Shown: positions 9,774-27,772 of the stretch, piece by piece
How the letters are laid out: each line of letters opens with the position of its first letter
Numbering within the stretch: position 1 is the first letter of the stretch
Assembly: GCA_026393675.1 (NCBI GenBank)
Contig: JAPKZQ010000045.1
Location: forward strand, 62,001-126,000
Direction: 5' to 3'
From: Acidobacteriota bacterium
GTDB lineage: Bacteria > Acidobacteriota > Vicinamibacteria > Vicinamibacterales > JAKQTR01
Length of the DNA stretch: 64,000 bases
Program-made: the position numbers and the translations under genes
The notes under the pieces: generated by a model
Told to the model about the DNA's origin: nothing
Databases searched by the model: none
The model's input: only the letters and a program-made list of their open reading frames with translations

Positions 9774-9843
9774 GCCGGGTCGGAAGACCCGGCGGACAGC
9801 AACTACGTCTCGAGGCCGGGCTGGAGCCCGGCGATCCCAGGTT
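9774..9843 (+). repeat. Dispersed double-hairpin element, copy 1
   Basis: Two stem-loops: 9774-9793 (GCCGGGTC, loop GGAA, GACCCGGC) and 9815-9832 (GCCGGGCT, GG, AGCCCGGC), the latter followed by GATCCCAGGTTC. The second part recurs identically at 53835 and 62818. It lies between the convergent 3' ends of the helicase and M16 genes and may also act as a bidirectional terminator. Confidence 0.7.
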
Positions 9844-9936
9844 CCCACCCGAATCCCGCCTGCCACGCCGAAGCCGGGATTGCAACGCACCGGCGAAGGC
9901 GGGAACCCCGAATCCCCAATCCCGTCTGAAGCCCCC

Positions 9937-12879: not shown

Positions 12880-13064
12880 GGGTATGCCTTCCTATTGATC
12901 CCATTCTGGCGCCTCGCGCCCTGCCACACAACCTTTAACAGCCCGTGGTGCGCCTGCTTGCCGCCCCACTCCTCCGGCACTACACTGATGTCAGTGGGTG
13001 GCACAACGACAGTGAACAGGCTGGCAGCGGTGAAGGCGCCGCGGCCTGGAAGGAGTCCTGCTCG

Positions 13065-13967
13065 ATGCGAGGACGTGTGATGCCCCCCCGGACCGCACTG
13101 ACAATCGCCGCGCTAATGGTCGCGTTGCTGACGGCGACGACATGCGGCGGCGGTTCGTCAAACCCGGTCACACCCACACCCACACCCACGCCCACACCGA
13201 CCCCGACGCCGACGCCGACTCCCACGCCAACGCCCACCCCCGCGCCACCAGCCGCCTTCGTGTGCGGCGCGATTGGCGGGTTTCTGACCACGCCTCAGAG
13301 CATCATCAATGGCCTGGTCTGCTCCGGAGACACTTCGCCCGTCGTCATGGTCCGGATCGATTACGTTAGCGGAAACACCTATGGGCTCTGCTCGGGGACG
13401 GTGATTGCCTCGAATGCCGTCCTCACGGCTGCCCACTGCCTCGACGGTCAGATCAGAAAGGTCACGATCTTACTGGGCGGCTTCGGTGGCAAACAGATTG
13501 TGGCCAACTCGTTCACGCCGATCCCCGAGTACAACAAAGACGTCAGCTCGTCTCCGGATGTTGGCGTGGTCATCGTTGACGACGGGAGCCTCCTCCGAAA
13601 TCCCATCCCGCTGCTCGTCCGCGATGCGGTCCGCGGCGAGCAGGGCGTGATCGCGGGATACGGGGTTGACGCCACCCAGGCCAATGAAGGCATTCTGCGC
13701 GCGGGCACAGTGACCATCGTCAGATCGCTCGGAAACTTCATTGACTCCGACTTCGCTGGCGACGTCAGTAACACGTGCAGCGGCGACTCGGGCGGGCCGC
13801 TGCTGCTACAGCTGCGGCAAGGCGGCCCGTGGGGCATCGCGGGCGTGACGTCAGCCGGGGAAATCAAAGACTGCCTGAGCGGCCTCAGCGACTACGCCCG
13901 CCTCAGCGACGCCACGATATGGTCGTTCATCTTCAGTCTCGTGCCAACCGCCAAGCCCCTGCAGTGA
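13065..13967 (+). CDS. Trypsin-like serine protease with (TP)12 linker
   Basis: 300 residues from ATG 13065, with GGAAGGAG at 13048-13055 nine bases upstream. A hydrophobic N-terminal segment ends in [10 protein letters not shown]; Cys27 could be a lipidation site, but ATTC is a poor lipobox. Twelve Thr-Pro repeats (36-59) form a rigid spacer, then an S1 domain with the full triad: His124 (TAAHC), Asp165 (DVGVV) and Ser242 (GDSGGPL). By family it is an extracytoplasmic endopeptidase; the spacer would hold it off the membrane. The repeat DNA at about 13168-13242 is a slippage-prone microsatellite. Confidence 0.85.
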
Positions 13968-13977
13968 TCGCCACGCG

Positions 13978-14691
13978 ATGATTCCGCCGCCTGCCATCCT
14001 TCATGCCGGCCAGACCGTCGTCGCCGCCAACAAGCCCGCTGGCCTGCCCGTCGTCCCCGCCCCGCCTCCGTCGGCGCCAGGCGACAGCCTGAGGGCCCTT
14101 CTCGAGCAGGAACTCGGATGCCCGCTCTGGGTCGTGCACCGACTCGATCGCGACGCGTCAGGAGTGGTGGTGTTCGCGCGAACGGCCGACGTACACCGCG
14201 CGCTGTGTCTGGCCTTCGAGAACCGCGCGGTGGAGAAGTCGTACGTGGCGCTTACAGCGGGCGTTCCAGATCCGCCAGAAAGCACGATCGACATTCCGCT
14301 GCATGCGGCGCGTCGCGGCAAGACCCGCCCGGCAAGGCCCGGAGAACCTGGGTTGCGGGACGCGGTGACCGCCTACGCCATCGAGGATCGCTGGCATCGA
14401 GGGGACGCGCGGGTCGCACTGGTCAGGGCGCGGCCACGCACCGGGCGCCACCATCAACTGCGCGTGCATTTTCGCGCGATTGGAACGCCGCTGCTGTTCG
14501 ATCCGTTGTATGGGCGGCGAGTCGATCTGACCGATCTGGCCGACGCGCCGTGTCAGCGCCTCGCGCTGCACGCCACGCGCCTCATCGTGCCCGCGACGGT
14601 GCTCGGGACGCGGTTCGAATTCGATGCGCCGCTGGCCCCAGACCTTGCAGCAACCGTCAGCTGGTTCGATCGCGAGTGGACCGCCGGCTGA
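13978..14691 (+). CDS. RluA-type RNA pseudouridine synthase
   Basis: 237 residues without an S4 domain. It begins IPPPAILHAGQTVVAANKPAGL and carries the catalytic HRLDRDASGVVVFA (Asp in the RLD triad) and the closing RPRTGRHHQLRVHF ... LLFDPLYG motif. Such enzymes isomerise uridine in rRNA or tRNA; the target cannot be told from sequence. It starts 10 bases after the protease gene on the same strand and ends directly against the convergent gene (14691/14692). Confidence 0.9.
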   Translation: MIPPPAILHAGQTVVAANKPAGLPVVPAPPPSAPGDSLRALLEQELGCPLWVVHRLDRDASGVVVFARTADVHRALCLAFENRAVEKSYVALTAGVPDPPESTIDIPLHAARRGKTRPARPGEPGLRDAVTAYAIEDRWHRGDARVALVRARPRTGRHHQLRVHFRAIGTPLLFDPLYGRRVDLTDLADAPCQRLALHATRLIVPATVLGTRFEFDAPLAPDLAATVSWFDREWTAG

Positions 14692-15243
14692 TTACTTCCT
14701 GGCTTCGGCGATCAGCGCGGTCAGCAGACGACAATAGAGCTTGTCGGCATCAGTAAACAGTTTCTGATAGTCGGCGTCCGACAGCTTCTGCTCCTTCTTC
14801 CAGTCCTCATCGAATCTCGTCTGCTTGCCGCCCTGGTCCAGCGAATCGGGGGCCTTGTTGTTCTCGTGGTCGGGCTTGAGCCCGTCGGCTCCGGCATCCT
14901 CCACGAACACTTTGGTGCCGGCCTTCGCGGCGCTGTTCAGGTCGATGTAGACATCCTGGTACTCGCGCTTCAGGAGTTTCCCGTCAAGCAGCACCGCCGG
15001 CAAATACTTGGCGCCGACGACGAGCAACTGGCTGCCGGTGAAGTACATCGCCGCGACATAGAAATCGGGCTCAGTGGTGTCTCTCGCCGCAATGGCCGAG
15101 AGCTTCTTTGCGTCCAGCAACTGGCCGAGTTCCTTCGCCAACGCCACGGACTTCACGTCCTGGGCGTAGGCCGCGCTGCTCATTGCCACCATTACCAGCA
15201 AGCCGATCAAGAGGTAGGAAGTACGGCGCAGGCTCGTAGTCAT
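14692..15243 (-). CDS. Secreted protein of unknown function
   Basis: 183 residues from ATG 15243, with GAAGG 8 bases upstream (an in-frame GTG at 15252 is less likely). A clear signal peptide, YLLIGLLVMVAMSSAAYAQ, is followed by a soluble, Lys/Asp-rich domain without recognised motifs. It is probably periplasmic. Its 5' flank is interrupted 35 bases upstream by the left boundary repeat of the phage-like island, so its native promoter region was probably separated from it by the insertion (inference). Confidence 0.7.
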   Translation of the reverse strand: MTTSLRRTSYLLIGLLVMVAMSSAAYAQDVKSVALAKELGQLLDAKKLSAIAARDTTEPDFYVAAMYFTGSQLLVVGAKYLPAVLLDGKLLKREYQDVYIDLNSAAKAGTKVFVEDAGADGLKPDHENNKAPDSLDQGGKQTRFDEDWKKEQKLSDADYQKLFTDADKLYCRLLTALIAEARK

Positions 15244-15277
15244 GAGAGTCACCTTCGTGAGGAGGGCCGGTACGATG

Positions 15278-15290
15278 GGGACTTTCTATC
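15278..15290 (+). repeat. Candidate attL core (13-bp direct repeat)
   Basis: GGGACTTTCTATC, repeated exactly in the same orientation at 27760-27772, 60 bases past the integrase gene. The two copies enclose all phage-type genes of the window. Confidence 0.7.
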
Positions 15291-15409
15291 CGACGGTCAT
15301 CGGGCAGATAGTAGCCGAAAACAGGTGCAAACGCCACAGGGACCGCCGGTTGCCGGATCGCGCTCGAATACGGCGAGTGCGCCGAAATACGAGGAATACG
15401 GACGCGGCA

Positions 15410-15427
15410 GGGACAGCAAAAGGGACA
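15410..15427 (+). repeat. Candidate integrase arm-type sites, left
   Basis: GGGACA at 15410 and 15422, 12 bp apart, in the non-coding left end. The same pair with the same 12-bp spacing occurs at 27638 and 27650 near the right end. Confidence 0.35.
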
Positions 15428-15526
15428 AGGACTGTTCCTGTTGGCGTCCCCACCGGGAGAGGGCCCCGGGATTGGGTTAGCAAGATCCACACCGACACGC
15501 GCGAAGCGGCGTAGACTGAGGGCAAC

Positions 15527-16108
15527 ATGGCTCGCCGTAAGATCCCGATAAAGGGCGGCCCACCACACGTCGTTCCGACTAGGCCCGAGATCGAACGCTC
15601 CAGGGCATTCGTCGCGAGGTTCCGCGAGGACCTCGAGGCGCGGTGCCAGGTTCTCTCGCCTCTCGAAATCAAAGACCTGATTGCCGCCGACTGCGCACAC
15701 AAGAGACGCCGGGACGTACGCCGCGCGGACGGGATTGAAGAGGCGCTAGCTGGTGCCCGTGAGCTCTACGACGGGGATCCCTCTGCTCCGTGGCGCCAGA
15801 AGGTTCACGCGCCCGGTGTTGTCGACGCCTGGTGGAACGCTTTCAGTGAGCCCCGGCTGTATGTCTATGACGAGACCGGCCGGCTTCTAGGGCGTCTTGT
15901 CGGGCGTGCCATCATACGCACCACTACGCGAAAGCGCCGCGACAACAAAGACGTTGCCAGGGCGATTACCTGCTACTTCAGACACGCTGCCGGTGAGACC
16001 TACGCGAAGCTGGCAAACGGCAGCGCGCCGATCGTCGCCAAACGGGCCGCCGACTGGTTGAGCCGCAACATTGATTCATGGCTCGCAAGCCGGCTTCGTC
16101 AGAGCTGA
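15527..16108 (+). CDS. Island protein of unknown function
   Basis: 193 residues, basic and Arg-rich, no membrane segment or signal peptide. A central part reads WWNAFSEPRLYVYDETGRLLGRLVGRA and the C-terminus has ADWLSRNIDSWLASRLRQ. I recognise no family. It is the first gene inside the left boundary, starts at ATG 15527 and is separated from the XRE-like gene by 115 bases. Confidence 0.55.
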   Translation: MARRKIPIKGGPPHVVPTRPEIERSRAFVARFREDLEARCQVLSPLEIKDLIAADCAHKRRRDVRRADGIEEALAGARELYDGDPSAPWRQKVHAPGVVDAWWNAFSEPRLYVYDETGRLLGRLVGRAIIRTTTRKRRDNKDVARAITCYFRHAAGETYAKLANGSAPIVAKRAADWLSRNIDSWLASRLRQS

Positions 16109-16181
16109 ACCCGGCCACTATAACCAGCAAGACACGCCCGTATCGGTTATTTTCAAATTCACCCCATGGCGGCATCCTAAG

Positions 16182-16203
16182 TGCGCTTGCGCAACAAAGC
16201 GCA
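16182..16203 (+). promoter_or_regulatory. Inverted repeat upstream of the XRE-like gene
   Basis: TGCGCTT (16182-16188) and AAGCGCA (16197-16203) form a 7-bp inverted repeat with an 8-bp spacer, 20 bases before the start codon. Position and symmetry suit an operator for the regulator itself; no promoter hexamers are obvious. Confidence 0.35.
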
Positions 16204-16223
16204 GCGTTCCATAAGGCGCCGCC

Positions 16224-16655
16224 ATGAACCCTAGCGAAGTCACGAAACTGGTCGACCGCGTCGCGAGCCCGGTCAGGCTTGCGCTCGTCGCGGCGGGAAT
16301 CACCAACCGCGCCGCGGCCAAAGATGTCGGGATCACTGAGGGCCGCGTTTCCGAAATCTGCCGCGGCGCGAGACGCGCGCCGGATCCGGACGAGAAGGCC
16401 GCGCTCGCGGCGCTCGTCGGCAAGTCCGTCGCCGTGCTCTTCCCCGACGCCGGGCTCGAAGTCGCCAAGGCGATGTATCGGGAGTCCGACCTAGTCAAGG
16501 CGTCTGACGCTCCAGAAGTGGCGCTCGCGATCCAGGTCAGCATCGAGATCCTTGATCGCGTGCTCACCTCGGTCGGCGTGTCAGGCTCCGCGCGACGCGC
16601 GACGCTGCAGAAGGCCGCCGGATTCGTGCGCAGGAAACACCAGGCGCGCGGGTGA
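16224..16655 (+). CDS. XRE-like helix-turn-helix protein
   Basis: 143 residues. The segment ITNRAAAKDVGITEGRVSEICRGARRAP (about 25-52) reads as a helix-turn-helix of the Cro/C1 type, followed by a mostly helical domain (DAPEVALAIQVSIEILDRVL). It may be the regulator of the island's early genes. The 5' flank has an inverted repeat that could be its operator. The next gene begins 4 bases after its stop, so they are cotranscribed. Confidence 0.6.
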   Translation: MNPSEVTKLVDRVASPVRLALVAAGITNRAAAKDVGITEGRVSEICRGARRAPDPDEKAALAALVGKSVAVLFPDAGLEVAKAMYRESDLVKASDAPEVALAIQVSIEILDRVLTSVGVSGSARRATLQKAAGFVRRKHQARG

Positions 16656-16659
16656 GGTC

Positions 16660-16923
16660 ATGGCGGCGAGTATATCCCTCCCACCGGAGGCGGCGACGGA
16701 TCTGACGATCCGCGAGCTGGCAGCCATTGAGGCGTCCCTGACTGATGAGGTGCGCGAACTGACCGCCGATGCGCGGGCGTACCGGGAGCTGGCCCTTGCG
16801 GCGTGCGCCGCGCTGAACAGCCTCACCCAAACATTTGACCAAGCCAAGGTGACGATTCTTGCCCAGCGCGAGGAATTGCGGCGGTACACGGCGGCGCACG
16901 CCGCACCAGGGCGGGCGGTATGA
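16660..16923 (+). CDS. Small island protein, unknown
   Basis: 87 residues from ATG 16660, with GGTGAGG just upstream. It is largely helical with coiled-coil character (IRELAAIEASLTDEVRELTADARAY; TFDQAKVTILAQREELRRY). It overlaps the primase gene by the ATGA at 16920-16923. A role next to the primase is suggested only by position. Confidence 0.6.
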   Translation: MAASISLPPEAATDLTIRELAAIEASLTDEVRELTADARAYRELALAACAALNSLTQTFDQAKVTILAQREELRRYTAAHAAPGRAV

Positions 16924-18314
16924 GCGGCCGCGGAAAAGTCCTGACGGCCGATCAAATTGGGTGGGGGGTGGCCGCGACAGCCTCTGATGGTTTCCCTCCG
17001 ACCGAAGCCGGCGCCGCGCAATCCTTTACTGAAGCGGTCCAGGACCGTCTGCGTTTCGATCATTGCCGGAACCGCTGGCTCATCAGATCAGAACACCACT
17101 GGAAGCCTGATGCCGATGGCGCCGTGATCCGACTCGCGCTCGATCATGCGCGGCGCCAGCAACGCCAGGCGCTCGACATCAAGGACACCTTTGAGCGAGG
17201 AAAGGCGATCGAGCACTGGTTGAAATTCGACCGTCGCGCGGCGCTCGACAACTTGCTGAGTCTCGCGAAGAACCTGCCACCGCTCGCGGACGATGGCACC
17301 AATTGGGATCACAACCGCGGGTTGATCGCTTTCGAAAACGGCGTCGTGTCCCTCGAGACCGGGACGCTACGGCCAGGCAAACCCGAAGACAAGATCACGC
17401 TCAGCACGGGCTTCAGCTTCGACCCGGACGCGTCGTGCCCGCGTTGGGAGCGGTTCATCAAGGAGGTCATTCCGGATCCAGCCGTCGCCGATTTCATGTG
17501 GCGGGCGTTTGGCTACGCCATCACCGGCGACATGCGCGAACAGGTGTTCTTTCTGCTCTTCGGCCGCGGGTGCAACGGCAAGAGCACGCTGATGGACGTG
17601 ATCGAGAGCGTCCTGGGCGACTACGCGTTAACTGTGCCCTTCTCGGCGTTCGAGCAAGACCGCGCGGGAAGCGTGCCGGCCGACGTGGCCAGTCTCGACG
17701 GTAAGCGTCTCGTCAAAGCCTCTGAGGGCACACCTGGCCGCTGGCTCCATTCGTCGCGCCTCAAGGACATCACGGGCGGCGAACGTGTGTCTGCCCGGCA
17801 CCTCTACGGGAACCCATTCACGTTCCGTCCGGTTTGTAAGGTGTTCCTCAGCACGAACGAACTGCCCAAGGTGGGCGACGACTCAGACGGCCTCTGGCGC
17901 CGACTACGACAGGTGCCGTTTACACAACGCTTCGAAGGCACAGCGGACGATCGATCACTGAAAGACACGCTCCTGGCCGAAGCGCCAGGGATTCTCGCCT
18001 GGCTCGTGCGCGGTTGCTTGGAATGGCAGACGCGCGGGCTTGGCGTGCCGGCGGCTGTTGCCGATGCGACTGCTGAGTACCGTGCCGACTGTGATCCACT
18101 CGCCCGCTTCTTCGATGAGGCGTGTCGTCTCGAGCTTGGCGTGGACGTCGGCGCCTCTGACCTGTTTCGGCATTACCGACAGTGGGCTGAACGCGCCGGC
18201 CTGAGCGAGAAGGAACGACTCTCCGCGACGGCGTTTGGACGGAAGTGCGTCGACCGCTTCATGCGATCCAAAACACGCGGCGGAATGGTCTATCAGGGGG
18301 TGTCCTGTGCATAA
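16920..18314 (+). CDS. D5/P4-type primase-helicase
   Basis: 464 residues. After a D5_N-like region (GLIAFENGVVSLETGTLRPGKPEDK; WERFIKEVIPDPAVADFMWRAFGYAITG), a superfamily 3 helicase has Walker A GRGCNGKST at about 215-223 and the later motif KVFLSTNELPKVGDDSDGLWRRL. A C-terminal DNA-binding tail follows (SDLFRHYRQWAERAGL). Proteins of this type start replication of phages, satellites such as P4, and plasmids. No N-terminal primase (Toprim/AEP) motif is seen, so the priming activity is uncertain. Iteron-like repeats lie directly after its stop. Confidence 0.88.
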   Translation: MSGRGKVLTADQIGWGVAATASDGFPPTEAGAAQSFTEAVQDRLRFDHCRNRWLIRSEHHWKPDADGAVIRLALDHARRQQRQALDIKDTFERGKAIEHWLKFDRRAALDNLLSLAKNLPPLADDGTNWDHNRGLIAFENGVVSLETGTLRPGKPEDKITLSTGFSFDPDASCPRWERFIKEVIPDPAVADFMWRAFGYAITGDMREQVFFLLFGRGCNGKSTLMDVIESVLGDYALTVPFSAFEQDRAGSVPADVASLDGKRLVKASEGTPGRWLHSSRLKDITGGERVSARHLYGNPFTFRPVCKVFLSTNELPKVGDDSDGLWRRLRQVPFTQRFEGTADDRSLKDTLLAEAPGILAWLVRGCLEWQTRGLGVPAAVADATAEYRADCDPLARFFDEACRLELGVDVGASDLFRHYRQWAERAGLSEKERLSATAFGRKCVDRFMRSKTRGGMVYQGVSCA

Positions 18315-18317
18315 GTG

Positions 18318-18420
18318 TGCAGGGTTTTCCCCAATGAATGCAGGGTTTGGACCTGTTTTCGTAACTTCTCTATATGTGTGCTCACGTAGGGAAGTTACAG
18401 AAAGAGCCTCAAACCCTGCA
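18318..18420 (+). repeat. Iteron-like and nested inverted repeats; candidate replication origin
   Basis: TGCAGGGTTT occurs at 18318-18327 and 18339-18348, 21 bp (two helical turns) apart, and inverted at 18411-18420. TGCAGGGTTTG (18339-18349) and CAAACCCTGCA (18410-18420) form an 11-bp inverted repeat that encloses a second one, GTAACTTC (18361-18368) and GAAGTTAC (18391-18398). The block is AT-rich for this window and lies between the helicase and the excisionase-like gene. Alternatives are an operator or an excisionase binding region. Confidence 0.5.
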
Positions 18421-18458
18421 CAACCCTTCACGGTTGGGCTGAGAACGGGGCGTCAGAT

Positions 18459-18689
18459 ATGAGCCTCCAAGCCCTCGCCGCCAGCCCGGATCGAGTTCGC
18501 ACAAACGGCAGACCGCGCCTCCAAAGCGCGAAGGACGCCGCCCGGGATCTTGGACTGCCGTACACGAGCCTCCGAGATGCAGCCTTCAGGGGCGAAATTG
18601 CGGTTATTCGAATCGGCCGGCGTTGGTTCTTCGAGTCGGGCGACTTGGATCGGTTTGTCGAAAGTCATCGGGAAACGTTCACGACATGA
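18459..18689 (+). CDS. Excisionase-like small DNA-binding protein
   Basis: 76 residues. AKDAARDLGLPYTSLRDAAFRGEIAV with RRWFFESGDLDRFVESH is the winged helix of the excisionase/AlpA-like (MerR-related) family. In mobile elements such proteins direct excision or activate the integrase. ATG 18459; the stop overlaps the next small ORF (ATGA at 18686-18689). Confidence 0.7.
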   Translation: MSLQALAASPDRVRTNGRPRLQSAKDAARDLGLPYTSLRDAAFRGEIAVIRIGRRWFFESGDLDRFVESHRETFTT

Positions 18690-18805
18690 GCCACACACCC
18701 GCACGGGATTCCATATCCCACGGCCGTCAGAATCAGGCCGATAATCCGGGCCTGTTCGCGTCGACTGTCCCCGGACTGTCCCCAAATTGGAGGGCAGGCG
18801 CATGA
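18686..18805 (+). CDS. 39-aa small protein, doubly coupled
   Basis: A short frame (MSHTPARDSISHGRQ... ending NWRAGA) that overlaps both neighbours by ATGA: its ATG sits in the stop of the excisionase-like gene and its TGA in the ATG of the next gene. No domain is recognisable. The double 4-base overlap, as elsewhere in the island, is the only argument that it is translated. Confidence 0.4.
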   Translation: MSHTPARDSISHGRQNQADNPGLFASTVPGLSPNWRAGA

Positions 18806-19260
18806 GCGACGACCAGGCAGCCGGCGCTCCGCTTGGCACGGTTGGACCCGACGCGGGCCGGAGTGCGCTCAATGGTCAATTCCTACCCGGGAACACGGCC
18901 GCGATGGTCGTGGGTGATCGTAGCGCGCAGTTCTGGCGGGCACAGGACGCCACCAGGCGCGAGATTGTCGGCGCCGTGATTGCTGACAGCGGGCACACGC
19001 CCGACGACGCGCCACGCGCCCTACAAATCGCGGCAGAGGGCATCGCACAGGCCGCCCTCGTGCGTGATGCCGCCTTCGACCGGATGGTGGAGAGCGGCGG
19101 GCCGCTCACGTCGAAGGACCGGGGCAGGCGCTCGTTGACGGTGTGGCTGGCCGCCAGCGATCGGCTCTTGCGTCACCTGCAGGTCGTCGGGTTGCGGCGC
19201 GTGCCGCGGTCGGCGCGGGGCATCGTGGATGCCATCACGCAGGAGGCGCCGCATGTCTGA
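18802..19260 (+). CDS. Putative terminase small subunit
   Basis: 152 residues from ATG 18802. It begins with a disordered stretch, then SALNGQFLPGNTAAMVVGDRSAQF and a helical core (RREIVGAVIADSGHTPDD; AALVRDAAFDRMVESGG; SLTVWLAASDRLLRHLQ). The call rests on position directly before the large terminase (8-base overlap) and on size; the sequence itself is not diagnostic. Small subunits recognise the packaging site on the DNA. Confidence 0.5.
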   Translation: MSDDQAAGAPLGTVGPDAGRSALNGQFLPGNTAAMVVGDRSAQFWRAQDATRREIVGAVIADSGHTPDDAPRALQIAAEGIAQAALVRDAAFDRMVESGGPLTSKDRGRRSLTVWLAASDRLLRHLQVVGLRRVPRSARGIVDAITQEAPHV

Positions 19261-20662
19261 GGCGGCCTTGACGGCGATCGGCTTCTTGCGGCGGTTGAAG
19301 TGGATCGACCGCGCGCCGCTCTTCCCGCGCATCGAACCGTATCGGCTGCGCTTGTTCGAGCTGGCGCTCGACACGTTCGACGCGGACGGGCGCCCGCGGT
19401 TCAACCTGATCCTGAGTGGCCGGGCCAAGAAGAACTGGAAGACCGCTGACTTGGTGTTCGCTGCGCTCTACGCCCTGGTGGCCCCAGGACCTGCGGGGTA
19501 CGAGTGCTACCTGCTCGCGAACGATGAGGACCAGGCGGGTGACGATCTGTCGCTCGCTAAGAAGTTGGTCGACGTCAACCCGATGCTCGCGGATTGGCTG
19601 ACCGTGCGCGCGAAGATGATTGAGCGGAACGATGGGAAAGGGTTCCTTGAGATTCTTCCCGCGGGCGACGTGGTCGGGAGTCACGGGAAGACGTTCCGGT
19701 TTGCCGGCTTCGATGAGATCCATGGGTTTAGGTCGTGGGACATCCTCGAGGCCATGCAACTTGACCCGACGCGGCTCGACGCGCAGCAGTGGATCACGAG
19801 CTACGCGTCCATCTACCACCGGCCCGGCGTGCCCCTGTTCGACCTGACGCTCCAGGGCCGCAAAGGGCTGGACCCGCGGATGCTCTTCTCGTGGTATGCG
19901 GCCGACTACACGACGGACCCGAACTTCAGCGAGGCGGATCCCGAGACGCGCGCCAACCCGTCTCGGGGCTCCTGGCCGGACCAGGGCTATCTGGAGCAGC
20001 AGCGACGCCGGCTGCCGGCCCACAAGTACCGCCGGTTGCATCTGAACTTGCCGGGCCTGCCTGAAGGCTCCGCGTTTCAGCCCGAGCCGGTCATGGACGC
20101 CTTCACGCGGGGCGAGCGGGTGCGTCCGCCGCAGGCAGGCGTCGAGTATCGGGCCGCCGTCGATATGTCGGGCGGGTCGAATGACGACGCCGTGCTGGCG
20201 ATTGGGCATGAGGACGTGGATGGGCGTACCGTCGTCGACCTCGTCATCAACCAGGGCCCGCCTCCGCCGTTCGATCCGCGGAAGGCCGTTGAGCGGTTCG
20301 CGCGGGTGCTGGCTGAGTACCGCGTCGCACACGTGGTCGGCGATCGATATGCTGGCCGCACATTCGTCGAGGACTTTTCCAGTCACAACGTCAGCTACAC
20401 GCCGACCGAACTGTCGGCGAGCGAAGCGTACGAAGCGCTCGAGCCGCGTCTGAACAGCCATCAAGTGATCCTCGTAGACGAGCCGACGCTTGAACAGCAG
20501 CTCCTGGGCCTCGTGTGGCGCGGCGGGAAGATTGATCACATGAACGGCGAACATGACGACTACGCGGCCGCGGTGGCGGCCCTCGTGGCGCTCACCGGCG
20601 CGGAAAACGGGTGGATTAGCTATATGAAAAACGAGGCGCGGAAAGCACAGATGAGCGCCTAG
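19253..20662 (+). CDS. Phage terminase large subunit
   Basis: 469 residues from ATG 19253, with AGGAGG at 19241-19246. ATPase part: SGRAKKNWKT at residues 55-64 in the Walker A position (unusual, lacking the normal GK(T/S)) and Walker B FAGFDEIHG near 151-158. Nuclease part: AAVDMSGGSNDDAV near 300, VVGDRYAGRTFVEDF near 361 and DDYAAAVAAL near 436 give the acidic residues of the RNase H-like fold. The protein should cut and pump DNA into a procapsid. No portal gene follows, which is abnormal for a phage. Confidence 0.8.
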   Translation: MSEAALTAIGFLRRLKWIDRAPLFPRIEPYRLRLFELALDTFDADGRPRFNLILSGRAKKNWKTADLVFAALYALVAPGPAGYECYLLANDEDQAGDDLSLAKKLVDVNPMLADWLTVRAKMIERNDGKGFLEILPAGDVVGSHGKTFRFAGFDEIHGFRSWDILEAMQLDPTRLDAQQWITSYASIYHRPGVPLFDLTLQGRKGLDPRMLFSWYAADYTTDPNFSEADPETRANPSRGSWPDQGYLEQQRRRLPAHKYRRLHLNLPGLPEGSAFQPEPVMDAFTRGERVRPPQAGVEYRAAVDMSGGSNDDAVLAIGHEDVDGRTVVDLVINQGPPPPFDPRKAVERFARVLAEYRVAHVVGDRYAGRTFVEDFSSHNVSYTPTELSASEAYEALEPRLNSHQVILVDEPTLEQQLLGLVWRGGKIDHMNGEHDDYAAAVAALVALTGAENGWISYMKNEARKAQMSA

Positions 20663-20667
20663 AGACC

Positions 20668-20702
20668 CGCGCATCCCTGTCTTCATGCTCCAGGGATGCG
20701 CG
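20668..20702 (+). terminator. Strong stem-loop after the large terminase
   Basis: CGCGCATCCCTG (20668-20679) and CAGGGATGCGCG (20691-20702) form a perfect 12-bp stem with an 11-base loop, 5 bases after the terminase stop. No T-run follows. A weaker inverted repeat, GGGCCGG (20705-20711) and CCGGCCC (20738-20744), comes next. It may terminate or stabilise the early transcript, or be part of a packaging signal. Confidence 0.5.
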
Positions 20703-20801
20703 GCGGGCCGGTTCTCGGGACATAGGCCACCCCGGGTCCGGCCCACCCTTAACGCACGATGACGGACAACAACGGACACCAGACGCAGGGAGAGACACGC
20801 G

Positions 20802-21308
20802 ATGGAACCAGCGAAGACGCAGACGATTGAGATCACGGGCGGCGCCCACGGGAAACCCGTGCACACGCAGACGTTCACCCTCCCGGTGCCGGTCGGCGGT
20901 GAAGGATTCCGCGGATTGCTGACTACGGGTTGCCAGGAATTTGGCGCGACCGGAACGCTGCTGTTGGGTCGGTGCGGAAACGTCGACTTCGATGAGGAGC
21001 CGGCGACGGACTTGCTGCCGCGCTGTCGGCGCGGAGTGCTGACCGTCGCCACGAGCAACGGCAAGTTCATCACCACGCCCATCGTGCTCGACCACGAGGC
21101 GCTCGCCGTGATCGGGCTCGAGGCGCCGTCCGAACCGCAGGCGGCCGCGCCACCCGCGGCGATCGCGGTCACGTTCACGTACACGCCGGCGCCAGGCGCT
21201 CCAGGTTGCGGCGTGCTGCACCTGCGGGTCGGCAACGTGCTGGGCTTTGACATCACCCTGCCGCTCAACCCGACCGCGCTGGAACAGGCCGGTCTTCTGA
21301 AGAGGTAA
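20802..21308 (+). CDS. Island protein, unknown (possible structural protein)
   Basis: 168 residues, rich in Thr, Pro and beta-type sequence (TFTLPVPVGGEGFRGLL; AIAVTFTYTPAPGAPGCGVL; LGFDITLPLNPTALEQAGLLKR), with four or five cysteines. No family recognised. It begins the block before the tail genes, where major tail proteins often lie, but the sequence does not prove that role. AGGGAGA stands about 10 bases before ATG 20802. Confidence 0.5.
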   Translation: MEPAKTQTIEITGGAHGKPVHTQTFTLPVPVGGEGFRGLLTTGCQEFGATGTLLLGRCGNVDFDEEPATDLLPRCRRGVLTVATSNGKFITTPIVLDHEALAVIGLEAPSEPQAAAPPAAIAVTFTYTPAPGAPGCGVLHLRVGNVLGFDITLPLNPTALEQAGLLKR

Positions 21309-21313
21309 ATCCG

Positions 21314-21595
21314 ATGGTAGAAATCCCTTGTTCGGTGACGCTGCCACCCGCCGGCCCGGCGAGTCGGCCCATTGTGGTGGACGTCGGCGCGATTGGCGAC
21401 GTCCGCGAGTCGCAGCTTCTCGCCGCGATGCTGGTCGCGGTCGTTCTCATGGAGGGCGGCGAGATCACGGTCACGCCGCATCCGGACGCGCCGACCGCCA
21501 CAGTGACGATCACGATGAGCGGCGGCAGGCAGGCCGACTTGGGGCCGATCAAGCTCTCCAAGAACGTGCTGCAGGCTCTCGGCGTCTTCGCGTGA
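21314..21595 (+). CDS. Island protein, unknown
   Basis: 93 residues, 5 bases after the previous stop. It reads as a small mixed alpha/beta protein (VVDVGAIGDVRESQLLAAMLVAVVLM; ATVTITMSGGRQADLGPIKLSKN). Its ending, NVLQALGVFA, resembles the ending of the preceding protein (ALEQAGLLKR) only loosely. Function unknown. Confidence 0.5.
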   Translation: MVEIPCSVTLPPAGPASRPIVVDVGAIGDVRESQLLAAMLVAVVLMEGGEITVTPHPDAPTATVTITMSGGRQADLGPIKLSKNVLQALGVFA

Positions 21596-21599
21596 CGCC

Positions 21600-21821
21600 A
21601 TGATCCCGGGTCAACTACTGGCCGCCGCGCACGACATTTCACGCGTCTGCCTGGCGTGCCAGCATCCGTTCGTGATCGCCGCCCAGGAGGCCGCCTGGTT
21701 CGATCGGATGGCGTATCACTACCCGAAGCGGTGCGTCTCGTGCCGCCGGGCGAAGCGAGCGCTCCAGGTCCAGCAGCAGTACGAGGCTGAGCAGGCGAAG
21801 GCGAACGGGAACGACTCATGA
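21600..21821 (+). CDS. Small zinc-ribbon-like protein
   Basis: 73 residues with two cysteine pairs, CLACQHPF and KRCVSCRRAK, spaced as in a zinc ribbon, followed by a charged helix (QVQQQYEAEQAKANGND). It could bind nucleic acid or protein. Its stop overlaps the next small gene by ATGA (21818-21821). Confidence 0.55.
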   Translation: MIPGQLLAAAHDISRVCLACQHPFVIAAQEAAWFDRMAYHYPKRCVSCRRAKRALQVQQQYEAEQAKANGNDS

Positions 21822-21988
21822 GAACCGACGACCAGGTGTCCCAGATCACGAAGCTCGCGGCGGCGGTACGCGACTCGGTCAGCAAGCAACAGGCGACGCT
21901 CGCTGCTCAGCAGGAGACGATCACGAAGCTGGCTGCACGGCTCGCGGTGGTCGAACGGACCTTCGATCCGCCGCCGCGCGGGCGCTGA
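21818..21988 (+). CDS. 56-aa coiled-coil protein
   Basis: Starts MRTDDQVSQITKLAAAV and continues as one amphipathic helix with heptad-like spacing, in which ITKLAA occurs twice (residues 10-15 and 35-40), ending TFDPPPRGR with TGA at 21986-21988. The ATGA overlap with the zinc-ribbon gene supports translation. Function unknown. Confidence 0.5.
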   Translation: MRTDDQVSQITKLAAAVRDSVSKQQATLAAQQETITKLAARLAVVERTFDPPPRGR

Positions 21989-22086
21989 GTCGCGGAGTGG
22001 CGGGCGTACGGGACGATGAGTTGGTGATTCGTGCGGGGGACGGCCCCTGCTTGTGTGTTTCGTTCTCACTGAAGGAGTGTTCCATC

Positions 22087-22614
22087 ATGGCGTGGCGAGG
22101 CAAACCCTATCACGAGGCGACCGTGCAGCTCGACGCCGAGACCGTCGACGTGCATATCCGGCGGCAGACGATCCATGAATCCACGGAGTTTCGGGAGGCG
22201 TTCGCGCGGCTCTGGACCGGCGATGCGCCGAAACCCGAGGACCCGGCCGCGCTGGCCACGTTCAAGCGTGAGCAGACCGCGTTTCTCATCGCGACGATCG
22301 AGCGTGATGTCACGTTCGGGCCTGGCCAGGTTTTCGTCGGCGAGCGTGAAATCCTCAGCGGATCCGACATCCTTGAGGTGTTCGGCGATCGGCTCTTCCT
22401 GCTCGGCCAGCTCCTAGGGCTGGCGTGGCGGGAGACCGTCATGGGAGACCTGGCAAAAAACGTCTTATCGTCGGGGCGTTCTTCCGCGCCTGGCTCGCCG
22501 GCGTCGACCAGCGCAGCAAGTGGGGACGCATCGGCGACAATTGCCGAGCCTGTCGAGCCGCTGGACTCGACGGCGAGCGCGGCTGCGATCGACCCGACGG
22601 GGACGATCCAGTAA
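22087..22614 (+). CDS. Tail assembly chaperone, zero-frame product (gpG-like)
   Basis: 175 residues from ATG 22087, with GAAGGAG about 10 bases upstream. The first ~120 residues form an alpha/beta domain (HEATVQLDAETVDVHIRRQT; ILEVFGDRLFLLGQLLGLAW). After the slippery site at 22455 the zero frame yields only a low-complexity Ser/Ala/Pro tail, ending at 22612-22614. Position directly before the tape measure gene and the frameshift signal match lambda gpG and its many analogues, which chaperone the tape measure during tail assembly. The family assignment is by context. Confidence 0.65.
   Translation: MAWRGKPYHEATVQLDAETVDVHIRRQTIHESTEFREAFARLWTGDAPKPEDPAALATFKREQTAFLIATIERDVTFGPGQVFVGEREILSGSDILEVFGDRLFLLGQLLGLAWRETVMGDLAKNVLSSGRSSAPGSPASTSAASGDASATIAEPVEPLDSTASAAAIDPTGTIQ
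22455..22461 (+). other. Programmed -1 frameshift site A AAA AAC
   Basis: The zero frame reads gcA AAA AAC, an ideal X XXY YYZ heptamer. A Shine-Dalgarno-like GGGAG lies at 22443-22447, 7 bases upstream, comparable to the stimulator in dnaX. Downstream, GGCG (22476-22479) can pair with CGCC a few bases later, a weak stem. A shift moves ribosomes into a frame that stays open to 22745. Confidence 0.7.
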
Positions 22615-22745
22615 TCGGTTCGATTGTCTGGCACGCCGGGCCCGTGGCCTTGAGGCATTGCCCAGTCCTGGATTTGACCCCGAAGGTGCGCGCGACACTC
22701 GATTGGTTCGAGCGCACGCACGAGGAGCAAGCTGATGTCGGATAA
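22461..22745 (+). CDS. Tail assembly chaperone, -1 frame extension (gpT-like)
   Basis: A 94-codon extension read after slippage (RLIVGAFFRAWLAGV ... LDWFERTHEEQADVG), giving a 219-residue G-T-like fusion. It has CRAC, a well-formed C-terminal helix and a TAA at 22743-22745 that overlaps the tape measure start by 11 bases. The frame could instead start at GTG 22425, but that has no ribosome binding site. In lambda the T domain recruits the major tail protein. Confidence 0.6.
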   Translation, partial: RLIVGAFFRAWLAGVDQRSKWGRIGDNCRACRAAGLDGERGCDRPDGDDPVIGSIVWHAGPVALRHCPVLDLTPKVRATLDWFERTHEEQADVG

Positions 22746-25626
22746 CGTTGCAGACATCCTCATCACGGTGACCCCGCAAGGCCTTGACGCGTCCTTCGAG
22801 AAGATCCTCGCGGGTCTCGACAAGGTCAAAGACGGCGTGGCTGGCGTCACGAATGTCGCGCAAGGCGCCACCGCCGCCAACGCCTCCTGGACCGACAGCG
22901 TCAAGTCGGCCGCGATGGGGTACATCGCGGGCATGGCGACATTCGAAGGCGCGAAACGCGTCGTCGGCGAGCTGGCCGACTTCGTGAAGTCCTGCGTCTC
23001 GGCCTACGCCGAAGCGGAGGCCGGGCAGAAGCGGTTGACGGTAGCCCTGGTCTCGGCGGGTCAGGGTGGCACGGGCGCGATTGCGATCTATAAGGGACTC
23101 GCCGATGCGATTGCCTCGAACACCGCCTTTGAGCGTGACGCGATCGTGGCCACCGAGGCGTTGCTGGTGCAGGTCGGCCAAGCCACCCCAGAGAATATGG
23201 AGTTGGCGCTCCGGGCCGTGACCGACCTCGCGGCCGGGCTCGGGATCGACCTGCACGCCGCCACGATGATGGTGGCCAAGGCGATGGAGGGCAACACTAC
23301 TGCCCTCAAGAAGGCCGGAGTCCAGGTCGATGAAACCGCGCTTCAGACGCGTGGGCTCGACGCGGTGATGGAAGCGATCGAGGGTCGGTTTGGCGGTCAG
23401 GCGCAGGCGCAGTTGGACACCTATGCGGGTCGCGTGGCGTATCTCGGCAATCAGTGGAAAGAAACCAAGGAATCCCTGGGCGGGGCGGTCGTGCAGAGCG
23501 GGCCGGCGGATCTGGCGCTGGCGATGCTCTCGACGGCCGTGATGAAAACCCGGGACGGAGTGGAGCAAGCCTCGGGATCCTGGCTGGCGTTGGCTGGTCG
23601 CCTCAATCTCTTCGGCATTCAGGGCGCCCAGACGCTGATCCTGTTGGACGAAATGGCTAGGTATTTCGCGGTCCTCGAAGGCGGGGTCGGGCGCTTGCCG
23701 GCGGTCACGGAGCCCGCGAAAGTCGGCATCGATCGGGTGGCGCTGTCGATGGAGCAGGCCGACAAGGTCGCCGAGATACTCGACGACACAGTCAAGCAGC
23801 AAATCGAGACCAACAAGAAGGCGGCGGAGGAGTGGAAGAAGCTCAACGACCAGATGGACGCGATGTCGGGGCGGAAGCTCATCACTGACACCAATACGCT
23901 GGTCGCCACCTACGACCGCCTGGCCAAGCAAGGGCTGAAGCCGACCTACGACGAACAGATCAAACTGAACGACGCCATCACGAAGGCAACGGCAGCGGCT
24001 GAAGAGAACGGCCGTGCGATCCCGGCCGCGTGGGCGCAGGTCACGCTGGCATCGAGCAGCACGCGAGCGGGCATCAAGGGTGTGGTGACCGAGTTCGGCA
24101 GTTACGCCCTCGCCGTCCCGCCGGCGGTAGACCAGACCGACGCGATCAACGAGGCCCTGAGCGTGCTGGAGTCGCGCGCCTATGCGGCGGCCCCGGCGAT
24201 GAATGCCGCGCAGGTGGCACTCAGCCACATGGCCGGGCTGATGCCGGAGGTGAAGAACCAGACCGACGAAATCAACCAAGGGTTCGACGCCCTCGCCAAA
24301 GACAAGGCCGTCGCGACGGAAAAGGCGCTCGGAAACGTGGCGACCGGCCTCGACGGCCTCTCCCGTGTGGCCGAGATGTCCGGCCACACGACCACCGCAG
24401 CCGTGATGAGCATCGCGTCGACGACGATCAAAGCGTTTGCCACTGGTGGCCCGTGGGCGGCGGCGATGGCTGGCGCGATGGCGATCTTCACCGCCTTCAG
24501 CGATCAGATTTTCAAAACCCAAGGCAAGGCGGTCAACAATCTGCGCGACGCCTTCTTCGCGACCCAGGGTGGGTACGAGAAGCTCCACGCGGCCATGATT
24601 GCGGCCGGCACTGAAGGGGCGTTCTACGAGGCCTGGAACGCCAAGACGACGGCCGATTGGGACAAAGCCCTCAAGGACATCAATGCCTCCCTCGATACGC
24701 AGAACAAGAAGCTCGCCGACGAACAGACGCTCCGCGCCGGGATCAACAGCCAGATCGTCGATGCACAGACACAACTGGAGACGTTGCGGGCGGGCGGCGT
24801 GGCGTCGTGGTCGGACATCTCGACGGCCGCCACGAAGTACGGGATCAACCTGGGCGGGATCGGCGTGCAGGTCCAGCAGCTCCAGACGAACGATCTGGCA
24901 ACCCAGTACCTGAACGACTGGAACATGATGGCCAAGGCCGGCGCCGATATGACGCCGGTGCTTCAGGGGATGGCGGACGAATTCTCGAAGCTCGTCGTCG
25001 ATGCGGAAGGCTACGGCACGCAGGTCCCCGGGAACATGAAGCCAGTGCTCGAGTCGCTCATCGCCCAGGGCCTCCTACTCGACAACACCGGAAGCAAGAT
25101 CACCGACATCAACAGCATTCCGTTCGGGCCGGACATCAAGACCGCGGCCGACATTCTCAACACCTCCATCCAGACGCTGGTCGACAAGATCAGCGCCCTC
25201 GTCGACCAACTGAGCCACGTCGGGGAAGTGGCGGCGCCGGCCGCCGCGGCCGTGCAGACTGCGTTCAAGGGCATGGATCTGGGCGTACCCTCGCCCTGGT
25301 CAAAGTGGGGCAACCCGCCCGACTATGCCGGCGCCGGCGTTGACTCGACGTCTCGCGAGGACGGCGTGCCGGCCTTCGCGAGTGGTGGCATCGTCAGGTC
25401 GCGCACGCTGGCGATTGTCGGAGACAAGGGACCGGAAGCCATCATCCCGCTCGCGCAACTCCCCCGGGTCGCCGCGGCGACGGTGGCGGCGGGCGGTGGG
25501 GGCGCGGATCTGATGGCTGAGCTCCTAAGACAGAACGCGAAGATACACATGGCCATCCTCCAACTACCGCAACAGATCACGCGGGGTTGGCGCGATGCGC
25601 AGCTCCTCAGCGCGAGGGCGTTCTAA
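22735..25626 (+). CDS. Phage tail tape measure protein
   Basis: 963 residues, mostly helical. The N-terminus (DNVADILITVTPQGLDASFEKILAGLDKVKD) is typical for tape measures, the middle has long heptad stretches (KQQIETNKKAAEEWKKLNDQM) and a moderately hydrophobic segment (GPWAAAMAGAMAIFTAF, about 575), and the C-terminal part has the recurrent GGIVRSRTLAIVGDKGPEAI motif near 881-900. By the usual 1.5 angstrom per residue it would set a tail of about 140 nm. It overlaps the chaperone extension. It requires tail-tube and tip proteins not found in the island. Confidence 0.85.
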   Translation: MSDNVADILITVTPQGLDASFEKILAGLDKVKDGVAGVTNVAQGATAANASWTDSVKSAAMGYIAGMATFEGAKRVVGELADFVKSCVSAYAEAEAGQKRLTVALVSAGQGGTGAIAIYKGLADAIASNTAFERDAIVATEALLVQVGQATPENMELALRAVTDLAAGLGIDLHAATMMVAKAMEGNTTALKKAGVQVDETALQTRGLDAVMEAIEGRFGGQAQAQLDTYAGRVAYLGNQWKETKESLGGAVVQSGPADLALAMLSTAVMKTRDGVEQASGSWLALAGRLNLFGIQGAQTLILLDEMARYFAVLEGGVGRLPAVTEPAKVGIDRVALSMEQADKVAEILDDTVKQQIETNKKAAEEWKKLNDQMDAMSGRKLITDTNTLVATYDRLAKQGLKPTYDEQIKLNDAITKATAAAEENGRAIPAAWAQVTLASSSTRAGIKGVVTEFGSYALAVPPAVDQTDAINEALSVLESRAYAAAPAMNAAQVALSHMAGLMPEVKNQTDEINQGFDALAKDKAVATEKALGNVATGLDGLSRVAEMSGHTTTAAVMSIASTTIKAFATGGPWAAAMAGAMAIFTAFSDQIFKTQGKAVNNLRDAFFATQGGYEKLHAAMIAAGTEGAFYEAWNAKTTADWDKALKDINASLDTQNKKLADEQTLRAGINSQIVDAQTQLETLRAGGVASWSDISTAATKYGINLGGIGVQVQQLQTNDLATQYLNDWNMMAKAGADMTPVLQGMADEFSKLVVDAEGYGTQVPGNMKPVLESLIAQGLLLDNTGSKITDINSIPFGPDIKTAADILNTSIQTLVDKISALVDQLSHVGEVAAPAAAAVQTAFKGMDLGVPSPWSKWGNPPDYAGAGVDSTSREDGVPAFASGGIVRSRTLAIVGDKGPEAIIPLAQLPRVAAATVAAGGGGADLMAELLRQNAKIHMAILQLPQQITRGWRDAQLLSARAF

Positions 25627-25650
25627 TGGGCACGATGACCGGCGACGACG

Positions 25651-25866
25651 ATGCGTGACACCACGCGGGCGGATTTCACGCGGCGCGTCGTGGGGCGCTG
25701 GGCGCTCGAGCGGTCGATCCGGCTCCTGCTCAGGCGCGTCGAACGCTTCGGGACGCACCGCGCCCGGGATCGGGCGGATCTAGACTGGGCGCTCCGGGTG
25801 AGCACCGCGCTAGACGCGTTGCTCCCGCCGCGGCCGCCAGCCGGACCGCGAGAGACGCGAAGTTAA
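25651..25866 (+). CDS. Small basic protein, unknown
   Basis: 71 residues, very Arg-rich (about one in four), with a helical centre (ALERSIRLLLRRVERFG; DRADLDWALRVSTALDALL). It lies 24 bases after the tape measure gene. A 10-codon frame starting at the TAATG junction (25626) runs into it. Coding is plausible from position, but a high-GC spurious frame cannot be excluded. Confidence 0.4.
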   Translation: MRDTTRADFTRRVVGRWALERSIRLLLRRVERFGTHRARDRADLDWALRVSTALDALLPPRPPAGPRETRS

Positions 25867-25927
25867 GGCAGTTGGAATCCTTGATCGCCGACCTCGTGCG
25901 GGTGTTGAGACGGTCCGATCATAGTAG

Positions 25928-25956
25928 TTGACATTGTAGAAACATGTAGATACGAT
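25928..25956 (+). promoter_or_regulatory. Sigma70-type promoter with direct repeats
   Basis: TTGACA at 25928-25933, a 17-bp spacer and TACGAT at 25951-25956. The start codon at 25968 is 11 bases past the -10 box, so the leader would be about 5 bases. The spacer contains TGTAGA twice (25935 and 25945), 10 bp apart, a likely operator for the ribbon-helix-helix protein it drives. Confidence 0.7.
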
Positions 25957-25967
25957 AGGGGCTGTCT

Positions 25968-26156
25968 ATGTCACCGAAGGAACTCACCGCGTTTCGTGTC
26001 GCTCCGGACATCATGGCCGGGCTTCGTGCGATCAAAGAGCGGGATGGGGTTCCGTTGTCGGTCCAACTCGATCGCGCGCTGCGCGCCTGGCTGGATGCGA
26101 AGGGGATGCAGACAAAGACGGCCTCCCGACGTGTGCAACCACGCCGGAAGGCCTAA
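25968..26156 (+). CDS. Ribbon-helix-helix (CopG-like) regulator
   Basis: 62 residues. KELTAFRVAPDIMAGLRAIK followed by DGVPLSVQLDRALRAWLDAKG fits the beta-strand, helix, helix pattern of RHH repressors, with a basic tail (RRVQPRRKA). It has its own promoter, in which spaced TGTAGA repeats could be bound by the protein itself. It probably controls the integrase-side genes (inference). Confidence 0.6.
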   Translation: MSPKELTAFRVAPDIMAGLRAIKERDGVPLSVQLDRALRAWLDAKGMQTKTASRRVQPRRKA

Positions 26157-26191
26157 ACCGTCACCCTGTCGTAACCAGGCCGACGATCTGG

Positions 26192-26206
26192 CTGGTATTC
26201 TACCAG
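26192..26206 (+). promoter_or_regulatory. Short perfect palindrome before the 117-aa gene
   Basis: CTGGTA-TTC-TACCAG, 34 bases upstream of ATG 26240. It may be an operator or a small stem-loop between the RHH gene and the next; no promoter elements are evident. Confidence 0.3.
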
Positions 26207-26239
26207 TCCGGCCCGCCGGCCTCCGATCTGGAGGCACCG

Positions 26240-26593
26240 ATGAAGCAGAAGACACCTACCCACAACGCTCGGACGCCGATTACTTTCGACGTGGATGATC
26301 CCGCTCAGTTCTTCTCGGACCTGAAGATACTGCGCGGCGCCGTGTCCATGCTCAACGGCGTCGTGGTCGCAATGGAGCGATCGGACGAGGAAGACGGGGC
26401 CGGCGCGTTCTATGGCGCCAGCGAACTCACCGACCACCTCTGCGGCTTCGTGAAGCTGGACGACATGGACCGGTTGTATGAAGCCGCGAAAGAGGCCTTT
26501 GATCGGCAGTTCAAGCAGTCGGTCCAGGCCTATCGCGCGGCCCAGGCGGCGCCCGTGGTGAAGCCGAAGCGGGCCAGGGCGAAGAGGCGGTGA
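26240..26593 (+). CDS. Island protein of unknown function
   Basis: 117 residues, with an acidic middle (AMERSDEEDGAGAFYGASELTDHLCGFVKLDD) and a basic end (KPKRARAKRR). It ends 3 bases before the integrase start, so the two are coexpressed. No family recognised; small acidic/basic partners of integrases are common, but nothing here shows such a role. Confidence 0.55.
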   Translation: MKQKTPTHNARTPITFDVDDPAQFFSDLKILRGAVSMLNGVVVAMERSDEEDGAGAFYGASELTDHLCGFVKLDDMDRLYEAAKEAFDRQFKQSVQAYRAAQAAPVVKPKRARAKRR

Positions 26594-26596
26594 CGT

Positions 26597-27700
26597 ATGG
26601 GCCAGATCCGACAACGCGGCGCCGTCTACTGGATTCGCTACTACCGCGACGGCAAGCGGTACGAGGAAAGCACGCGCAGCAAGAAAGAAGGCGAGGCTAA
26701 GCGACAGCTCCGGCTCGCCGAAGGCGCGATCGAACAGGGCATCCCGGTCACGCCGAAGATCGGACGCCTGAAGTTCGACGACGCTGCAGCGGACCTCATC
26801 ACTGACTACAAGGTGAACGGTAAACGATCGCTCGCGCACGTCGAACGCCGCGTTGGTCAGCATCTCAAGCCGACGTTTGGCGGGCGACGCATGGCCGGGG
26901 TCACGACGACAGACGTGCGAACCTACGTCGACAAACGCCAGAAGGAAGGCGCGGCGAACGCCAGCATCAACCGGGAACTGGCCGCACTCAAGCGCATGTT
27001 CTCGCTGGCGATCCAAGCGGGGAAGTTACTCCACCGTCCCCATATTCCGATGCTGCGGGAAGACAACACGCGACAAGGGTTCTTCGAGCGCTCCGCTTTC
27101 GAGTCCATGCGGGCGCATCTGTCGGCCGACCTGCAGCCCGTCGTCACGTTCGCCTACCTGACGGGCTGGCGCGTCCACAGTGAGATTCTGCCGATCACTT
27201 GGGGACAGGTCGACCGGCAAGCCGGGATCGTCCGTCTCGAACCCGGCACGACGAAGAACGGCGACGGCCGGGTGTTCGACTACTCGGGACTGCCTGACCT
27301 GGTCGATCTGTTCAATGACCTCTGGACGGCGCATGAGACGCTGGCGAGGACGAAGTGCACGATCTGCCCATGGGTGTTCAACCGGGCGGGCGAGCGGATT
27401 CGGAACTTCTGGCACGCGTGGCAGTCCGCGACGAAGGCGGCCGGATGCCCGGGGCGCATCCCGCACGACCTCCGGCGGACGGCCGTTCGGAACTTCGTCC
27501 GCGCTGGCGTGCCGGAGCGCGTGGCAATGAAATTGACGGGCCACAAGACGCGATCGGTGTTTGATCGTTACGACATCACGAGCCCGGGTGATTTGCGCGA
27601 AGCCGGGGCCAAGTTACACGAGGCCCGAAACGCGACAGGGACAATCACGGGGACAGTGGACCGATCCGGGGCGAAAACGGGAACCGGGACAGGCGGCTAA
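26597..27700 (+). CDS. int: Tyrosine recombinase (phage integrase)
   Basis: 367 residues. The N-terminal part has an AP2/arm-binding-like start (GQIRQRGAVYWIRYYRDGKRY), then a SAM-like core-binding domain (NASINRELAALKRMFSLAIQAG). The catalytic domain carries Arg in YLTGWRVHSE (near 192), HDLRRT (near 290-295), GHKT (near 315) and Tyr in FDRYD (near 324). The C-terminal 20 residues are low-complexity Thr/Gly. It should integrate and excise the island; the attR candidate lies 60 bases past its stop. Confidence 0.93.
   Translation: MGQIRQRGAVYWIRYYRDGKRYEESTRSKKEGEAKRQLRLAEGAIEQGIPVTPKIGRLKFDDAAADLITDYKVNGKRSLAHVERRVGQHLKPTFGGRRMAGVTTTDVRTYVDKRQKEGAANASINRELAALKRMFSLAIQAGKLLHRPHIPMLREDNTRQGFFERSAFESMRAHLSADLQPVVTFAYLTGWRVHSEILPITWGQVDRQAGIVRLEPGTTKNGDGRVFDYSGLPDLVDLFNDLWTAHETLARTKCTICPWVFNRAGERIRNFWHAWQSATKAAGCPGRIPHDLRRTAVRNFVRAGVPERVAMKLTGHKTRSVFDRYDITSPGDLREAGAKLHEARNATGTITGTVDRSGAKTGTGTGG
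27638..27691 (+). repeat. Candidate integrase arm-type sites, right
   Basis: GGGACA at 27638, 27650 and 27686, in steps of 12 and 36 bp, inside the 3' end of int. The 12-bp pair mirrors the one at 15410. The Thr/Gly-rich coding here may also produce such repeats by chance. Confidence 0.35.
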
Positions 27701-27759
27701 GGTATTCATTCTACACGCCGGAGTGACGGGACGGCTTTCGCAAGAGGGGCGATCCGTGC

Positions 27760-27772
27760 GGGACTTTCTATC
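27760..27772 (+). repeat. Candidate attR core (13-bp direct repeat)
   Basis: GGGACTTTCTATC, identical to 15278-15290 and in the same orientation; flanking bases differ on both sides. It marks the right end of the island. Confidence 0.7.

Follow-up and report, generated by a model that had tools for sequence, protein, structure and literature searches.

PLEs of Vibrio cholerae put their own tape measure protein (TMP), chaperone and hub protein into the tails of ICP1 (PMC12987554, Nature 2026), and deletion of the PLE tmp lowers transduction by 96–99.9% (PMC12987554). An earlier note on the DNA analysed here, written from the sequence alone, had stated that phage satellites usually lack tape measure genes; this is outdated by PLEs, which carry TMP and chaperone genes, and by some cf-PICIs, which carry a putative tmp (PMC12987554).

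The island described here lies in a window of 64,000 nucleotides (the whole stretch that was analysed) from an Acidobacteriota bacterium. As in PLEs, it contains genes for a TMP and a tail-assembly chaperone; PLEs take the capsid and most of the tail from a helper (PMC12987554), and the same is presumed for the island. The helper of PLEs, however, is a contractile-tailed phage, whereas the island resembles siphophages in its frameshifted G/GT chaperone and encodes a TerL of its own. PLEs also carry a baseplate hub protein (BhuB, PLE11), whereas no BhuB-like gene was found between the island TMP and integrase, where only ORFs of 62–117 aa are present. PLEs have a Vibrio host and ICP1 as helper, whereas relatives of the island occur in Acidobacteriota-type genomes with no match in Vibrio. 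The island and PLEs share a plan only and are different satellite lineages. Like cf-PICIs, a sampling of which has a putative tmp (PMC12987554), the island is integrated and has its own TerS and TerL, but cf-PICIs have their own genes for the major capsid protein, protease, portal and connectors and require a helper for tails alone (PMC10690885); no major capsid protein, portal or protease gene is recognised in the island. Classical PICIs/SaPIs and P4 are likewise 10–15 kb in size, have an integrase, excisionase or regulator and primase, and use the capsid and tail of a helper. The island has the integrase, excisionase/AlpA-like regulator and primase of a PICI, but also its own TerL and TMP, whereas SaPIs have at most TerS and no TMP or TerL, and P4 uses the terminase of its helper and has no TMP or TerL (PMC10690885). 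PICIs redirect packaging without a TerL, and P4 also has a size-redirection scaffold, Sid. The Streptomyces satellites MulchRoom and MiniFlayer also carry terminase genes, but show the opposite pattern to the island, with a complete set of capsid genes and without a primase (PMC10690885).

Limits and gene content of the island

Repeat counts and an empty site place the exact limits of the island at 15278–27772 (12.5 kb). The 3.25-Mb genome has exactly two copies of the 13-bp core GGGACTTTCTATC (chance expectation for such a repeat in the window, 0.04), and a genome of the same genus (G001) contains the empty site GGGACGTTCTATC, in which the flanks to 15290 and from 27760 adjoin and overlap by exactly 13 bases. 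On the strength of the repeat count and the empty site, the island is a genuine insertion upstream of a host gene rather than a chimera created by assembly. Like a satellite, it forms a discrete integrated element flanked by att repeats and encodes its own integrase. Islands with related integrases are inserted in tRNA-Leu, and the att core is similar to the tRNA-Leu anticodon region GGGACTTAAAATC; given this likeness, the insertion may occupy a secondary site. Scans of the window for tRNAs and Rfam families gave no matches. Outside the island, the window also contains a tandem array at 53847–54247 (57-bp unit, 7.1 copies, 92% matches).

All island genes are on the plus strand and include a repressor, D5 primase, excisionase, TerS, TerL, chaperone, TMP and tyrosine integrase (Table 1). 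Pfam and PHROG matches (PHROG labels being annotations) confirmed the same-strand block of integrase, excisionase-like protein, D5 primase and TerL given in the earlier note, the inventory of which was correct except for its sole omission, the likely TerS. That note had also found no portal, capsid, baseplate or lysis gene, and no such family was matched here; the Pfam and PHROG search of the island recognised no head, portal, capsid, tube, baseplate or lysis gene. The longest island protein without an assignment has 193 aa, and by these matches and by ORF size capsid genes are absent, as in satellites, although a divergent head gene could be hidden among the small proteins. By eye, the products of 20802–21308 and 21314–21595 resemble repeats of a single short domain.

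Table 1. Features of the island, with positions as numbered in the window
Feature	Position	Strand	Evidence or remark
attL core GGGACTTTCTATC	15278..15290	+	2 copies genome-wide; empty site in G001
193-aa protein	15527..16108	+	No Pfam/PHROG match
HTH_3 repressor-like regulator	16224..16655	+	PF01381 6e-6
87-aa protein	16660..16923	+	ATGA overlap with primase
D5-type primase/helicase	16920..18314	+	phrog_6088 5e-115; PF08706 1.3e-24
Excisionase-like HTH_17 protein	18459..18689	+	1.6e-6; 65% identity to L030 and 51% to L025 homologue
Likely TerS	18802..19260	+	No profile match; homologue precedes TerL in L025, L026, L032, L036, L059
TerL	19253..20662	+	phrog_9 9.6e-27; start may be 19229
168-aa protein	20802..21308	+	Weak relative (E 0.004) adjoining L019 TerL
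93-aa protein	21314..21595	+	Homologue adjoining L019 TerL, 35% identity
Treble-clef zinc protein	21600..21821	+	PF13451 3e-8
56-aa protein	21818..21988	+	Called on coding score alone
Tail-assembly chaperone, short G-type product	22087..22614	+	29–31% identity to protein directly upstream of L147 TMP
Slippery heptamer A AAA AAC, -1 phase	22455..22461	+	Coding score switches frame there
-1-frame extension (T-type domain)	22462..22745	+	Overlaps TMP start; L147 homology
TMP, 963 aa	22735..25626	+	47% over 169 aa to phage TMP L050; aligns with L053, L055
71-aa protein	25651..25866	+	Gene call
Ribbon-helix-helix-like (RHH) protein	25968..26156	+	Recurs near integrase; homologues in L025, L030, L036, L080
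117-aa protein	26240..26593	+	No profile match
Tyrosine integrase	26597..27700	+	PF00589; phrog_1 1.6e-43; 86% identity to L030 integrase
attR core GGGACTTTCTATC	27760..27772	+	Second of only 2 genomic copies; empty site in G001

Terminase lineage and related islands

A TerL model of moderate confidence (pLDDT 68), built on ten relatives, matched the HK97 large terminase 6z6d along its full length in a fold search (E 2e-14); searches of PDB sequences with the TerL profile gave no match. The Walker B and nuclease aspartates are conserved. The P-loop reads GRAKKNWKT, and TerLs of clade 1 have W/A/D/F/N, not Gly, preceding the Walker A Lys, as does the TerL of phage L077 (also non-Gly). This TerL lineage is missing from 50,697 phage records, where the best match is 24%, and is, as judged from sequence, satellite-specific. 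In the TerL tree, some deep branches of which are long, both island clades stand apart from the TerLs of full phages; the clade of this island contains 13 islands from several phyla and the second contains further Acidobacteriota islands. TerL relatives with 50–72% identity were found in Acidobacteriota, Gemmatimonadota, Elusimicrobiota, Myxococcota and Pseudomonadota, with the isolate Mesorhizobium carmichaelinearum ICMP 18942 among the hosts.

About 34 related islands from several phyla, with genes called by a simple codon-score caller trained on the window, show the order primase–TerS–TerL–(part)–integrase, and a major capsid gene was found in none of them. PF05065 and PF04860, which mark HK97-type heads only, were never seen beside an island TerL in 24 island-bearing genomes. 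The part is a TMP in the present island, L025, L028, L057, L064, L118, L123, L124 and L051 (the last without TerL), a portal in L035 and L065, a protease in L060, L062, L066, L051 and L118, and a scaffold in L063, with no recognised part in some islands. Gene order is alike in nine TMP islands, several of which have tRNA-derived end repeats (13.6–15.4 kb); tRNA-derived or other end repeats lie 12.7–15.4 kb apart in L064, L028, L123, L124, L118, L025 and L030. In L064, the island of M. carmichaelinearum ICMP 18942, the ends are marked by a 54-bp tRNA-Gln repeat. TMP carriers are scattered across the TerL tree and their TMPs are mutually diverse, and TMPs were therefore gained more than once.

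The portal genes (phrog_145) of L035 (5407–6687) and L065 (12031–13404) lie beside TerL in short islands in which no major capsid gene was recognised. The IMG/VR contig L021 contains 2 different TerL genes and 2 integrases at 8847–19880, probably 2 tandem satellites. L051 (G043:C75, 5558–18594) encodes a primase, a TerS-like protein, a prohead protease and a TMP, and its genome carries 2 further TMP islands, L028 and L052. The protein preceding the TMP in L118 (7611–8147) has an HEAKH-like metalloprotease motif. In L058/L080 (G091:C440), a TMP gene adjoins an HK97-gp10-like gene, an integrase gene and an RHH gene lie upstream, and no capsid was recognised; this is possibly a further TMP satellite and not a phage.

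Tail module and co-resident prophages

The frame-0 coding score of the chaperone gene reaches +65.7 up to 22458 and is lost past the heptamer at 22455, after which the -1 frame scores best until the start of the TMP. L147, from its PHROGs a complete siphophage prophage with portal, capsid, decoration, neck and TMP, has a -1-frame extension downstream of an A9 run in the equivalent position, and the -1-frame product of the island shares 46% identity with this extension over 72 aa (E 5e-18). The preserved frameshift site proposed earlier is borne out by this frame-specific score and homology, and sequence comparison indicates that the -1 frameshift is real and that a siphophage-type G/GT arrangement is maintained in the island. 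A stem-loop 3′ of the slippery site was no stronger than in shuffled sequence (z -0.28), and in L028 a -1-frame ORF is present without a clear canonical heptamer. Chaperone relatives were found in neither phage records nor IMG/VR, with one found in order-level genomes, and the single-sequence fold of the chaperone was poor (pLDDT 42). The TMP had no direct profile match; its earlier identification is upheld by alignment to the phage proteins L050, L053 and L055, of which L050 and L055 match TMP profiles, and by its place directly after the chaperone.

Two genomes, G009 and G488, are the only ones with a TMP island in the examined set that contain an HK97-type prophage, a small sample, and in both the TMPs of island and prophage are related. 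In G009, the TMP of the one HK97-type prophage (L054/L055: portal, protease, capsid, tail and TMP) has 37% identity over 522 aa to that of island L025 (prophage TMP in L055). In G488, the TMP of the one HK97-type prophage (L149) has 33% identity to that of island L118, collinear over 654 aa, and the prohead proteases of this prophage and L118 have 58% identity over 146 aa. Relative to the TMP of the co-resident prophage, one satellite TMP is 3.6% longer and the other 10% shorter. Redirection of tail length, the purpose suggested earlier, was rejected as a general purpose, being unsupported by lengths that differ in both directions. No HK97-type capsid or portal was found in the genome of the window, so no HK97-type resident helper was seen.

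A probable helper-dependent satellite and alternative readings

The island is probably a satellite that depends on a siphophage as helper, packages its own DNA and builds hybrid particles with chimeric tails; dependence on a helper, packaging of the island and chimeric tails are what we infer. Such an island would integrate via its tyrosine integrase and replicate with its D5 primase, and its TerS–TerL would recognise and package island DNA. Capsid, portal, connectors, tail tube, tail tip and lysis proteins would be supplied by the helper, and the satellite would contribute its own TMP and chaperone, the latter in two forms through -1 frameshifting. If it acts like gpG/gpGT of phage lambda, the chaperone would attach to the satellite TMP and draw tube protein of the helper onto it, so that satellite particles would have chimeric tails. 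Replacement of the TMP might allow escape from a TMP-targeted block or exclusion, alter host-entry specificity or interfere with the helper. Counting against the satellite reading, TerL must work with a helper portal that has evolved separately. Also against it are the absence of an HK97-type capsid and portal from the genome of the window, the small proteins that could conceal a divergent head gene, and the non-Gly Walker A residue of clade 1, although phage L077 shares this last feature.

It is unlikely that the element is an integrated anti-phage island, with TMP and chaperone as dominant-negative decoys against incoming phage tails and transfer as a secondary matter. Tail assembly is a known target of defence (Tai in PICIs, PMC11364771; Rta of PLE11, PMC12987554), and the kinship of TMPs with those of co-resident prophages suits interference too, but with TerS–TerL, primase, integrase and att repeats the island is equipped as a mobile element, and a PLE satellite needs its tmp genes for its own transfer (PMC12987554).

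The earlier note had weighed a satellite against a prophage that lost its head module. A decayed prophage, in which the head module and the bulk of the tail and lysis genes have gone and the remaining genes happen to be intact, would fit the siphophage order of TerL, chaperone and TMP and the 139-bp gap at 20663–20801, where head genes would begin. This is nevertheless quite improbable, as none of the roughly 34 relatives has a capsid gene and their parts at this place differ, the TerL is satellite-specific, and TMP carriers are dispersed over the TerL tree. Relatives with portal and capsid between terminase and tail genes were sought and none found, the two relatives with a portal both being without a major capsid gene. 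Moreover, the att ends are precise, no frames are broken, and dN/dS (Nei-Gojobori method, few pairs) is about 0.15 for the integrase (against that of L030) and about 0.3 for TerL; TMP, chaperone and TerL look maintained, in line with the earlier view of selection rather than decay. The satellite alternative is instead favoured by relatives without a head module that carry differing single parts there, and by the absence of the TerL lineage from phage records. A reduced cf-PICI with capsid genes too divergent for recognition is very improbable: cf-PICIs do have TerS–TerL and some a putative tmp (PMC12987554 Extended Data Fig. 10), and the 168-aa and 93-aa proteins have no assigned identity, but the unassigned proteins, at 193 aa or less, fall short of the size of an HK97-type major capsid protein, which is also missing from related bounded islands.

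For the satellite lineage as a whole, the chances are about even that this is a multi-phylum group with its own TerS–TerL, in which members swap in one or two assembly-control parts of the helper (TMP with chaperone, prohead protease, scaffold or portal), never a capsid gene, and in which parts captured again and again from helper-like phages serve to re-program the assembly of heads and tails one part at a time. Satellite-coded TMPs were first reported in 2026, in PLEs, with hints in cf-PICIs. The choice of a satellite TMP over that of the helper is directly testable with matched satellite–prophage pairs and the cultured M. carmichaelinearum isolate. The finding of TMP and chaperone in unrelated TerL-bearing satellites, with several captures and a match to co-resident prophages, points to tail piracy as a recurrent strategy.
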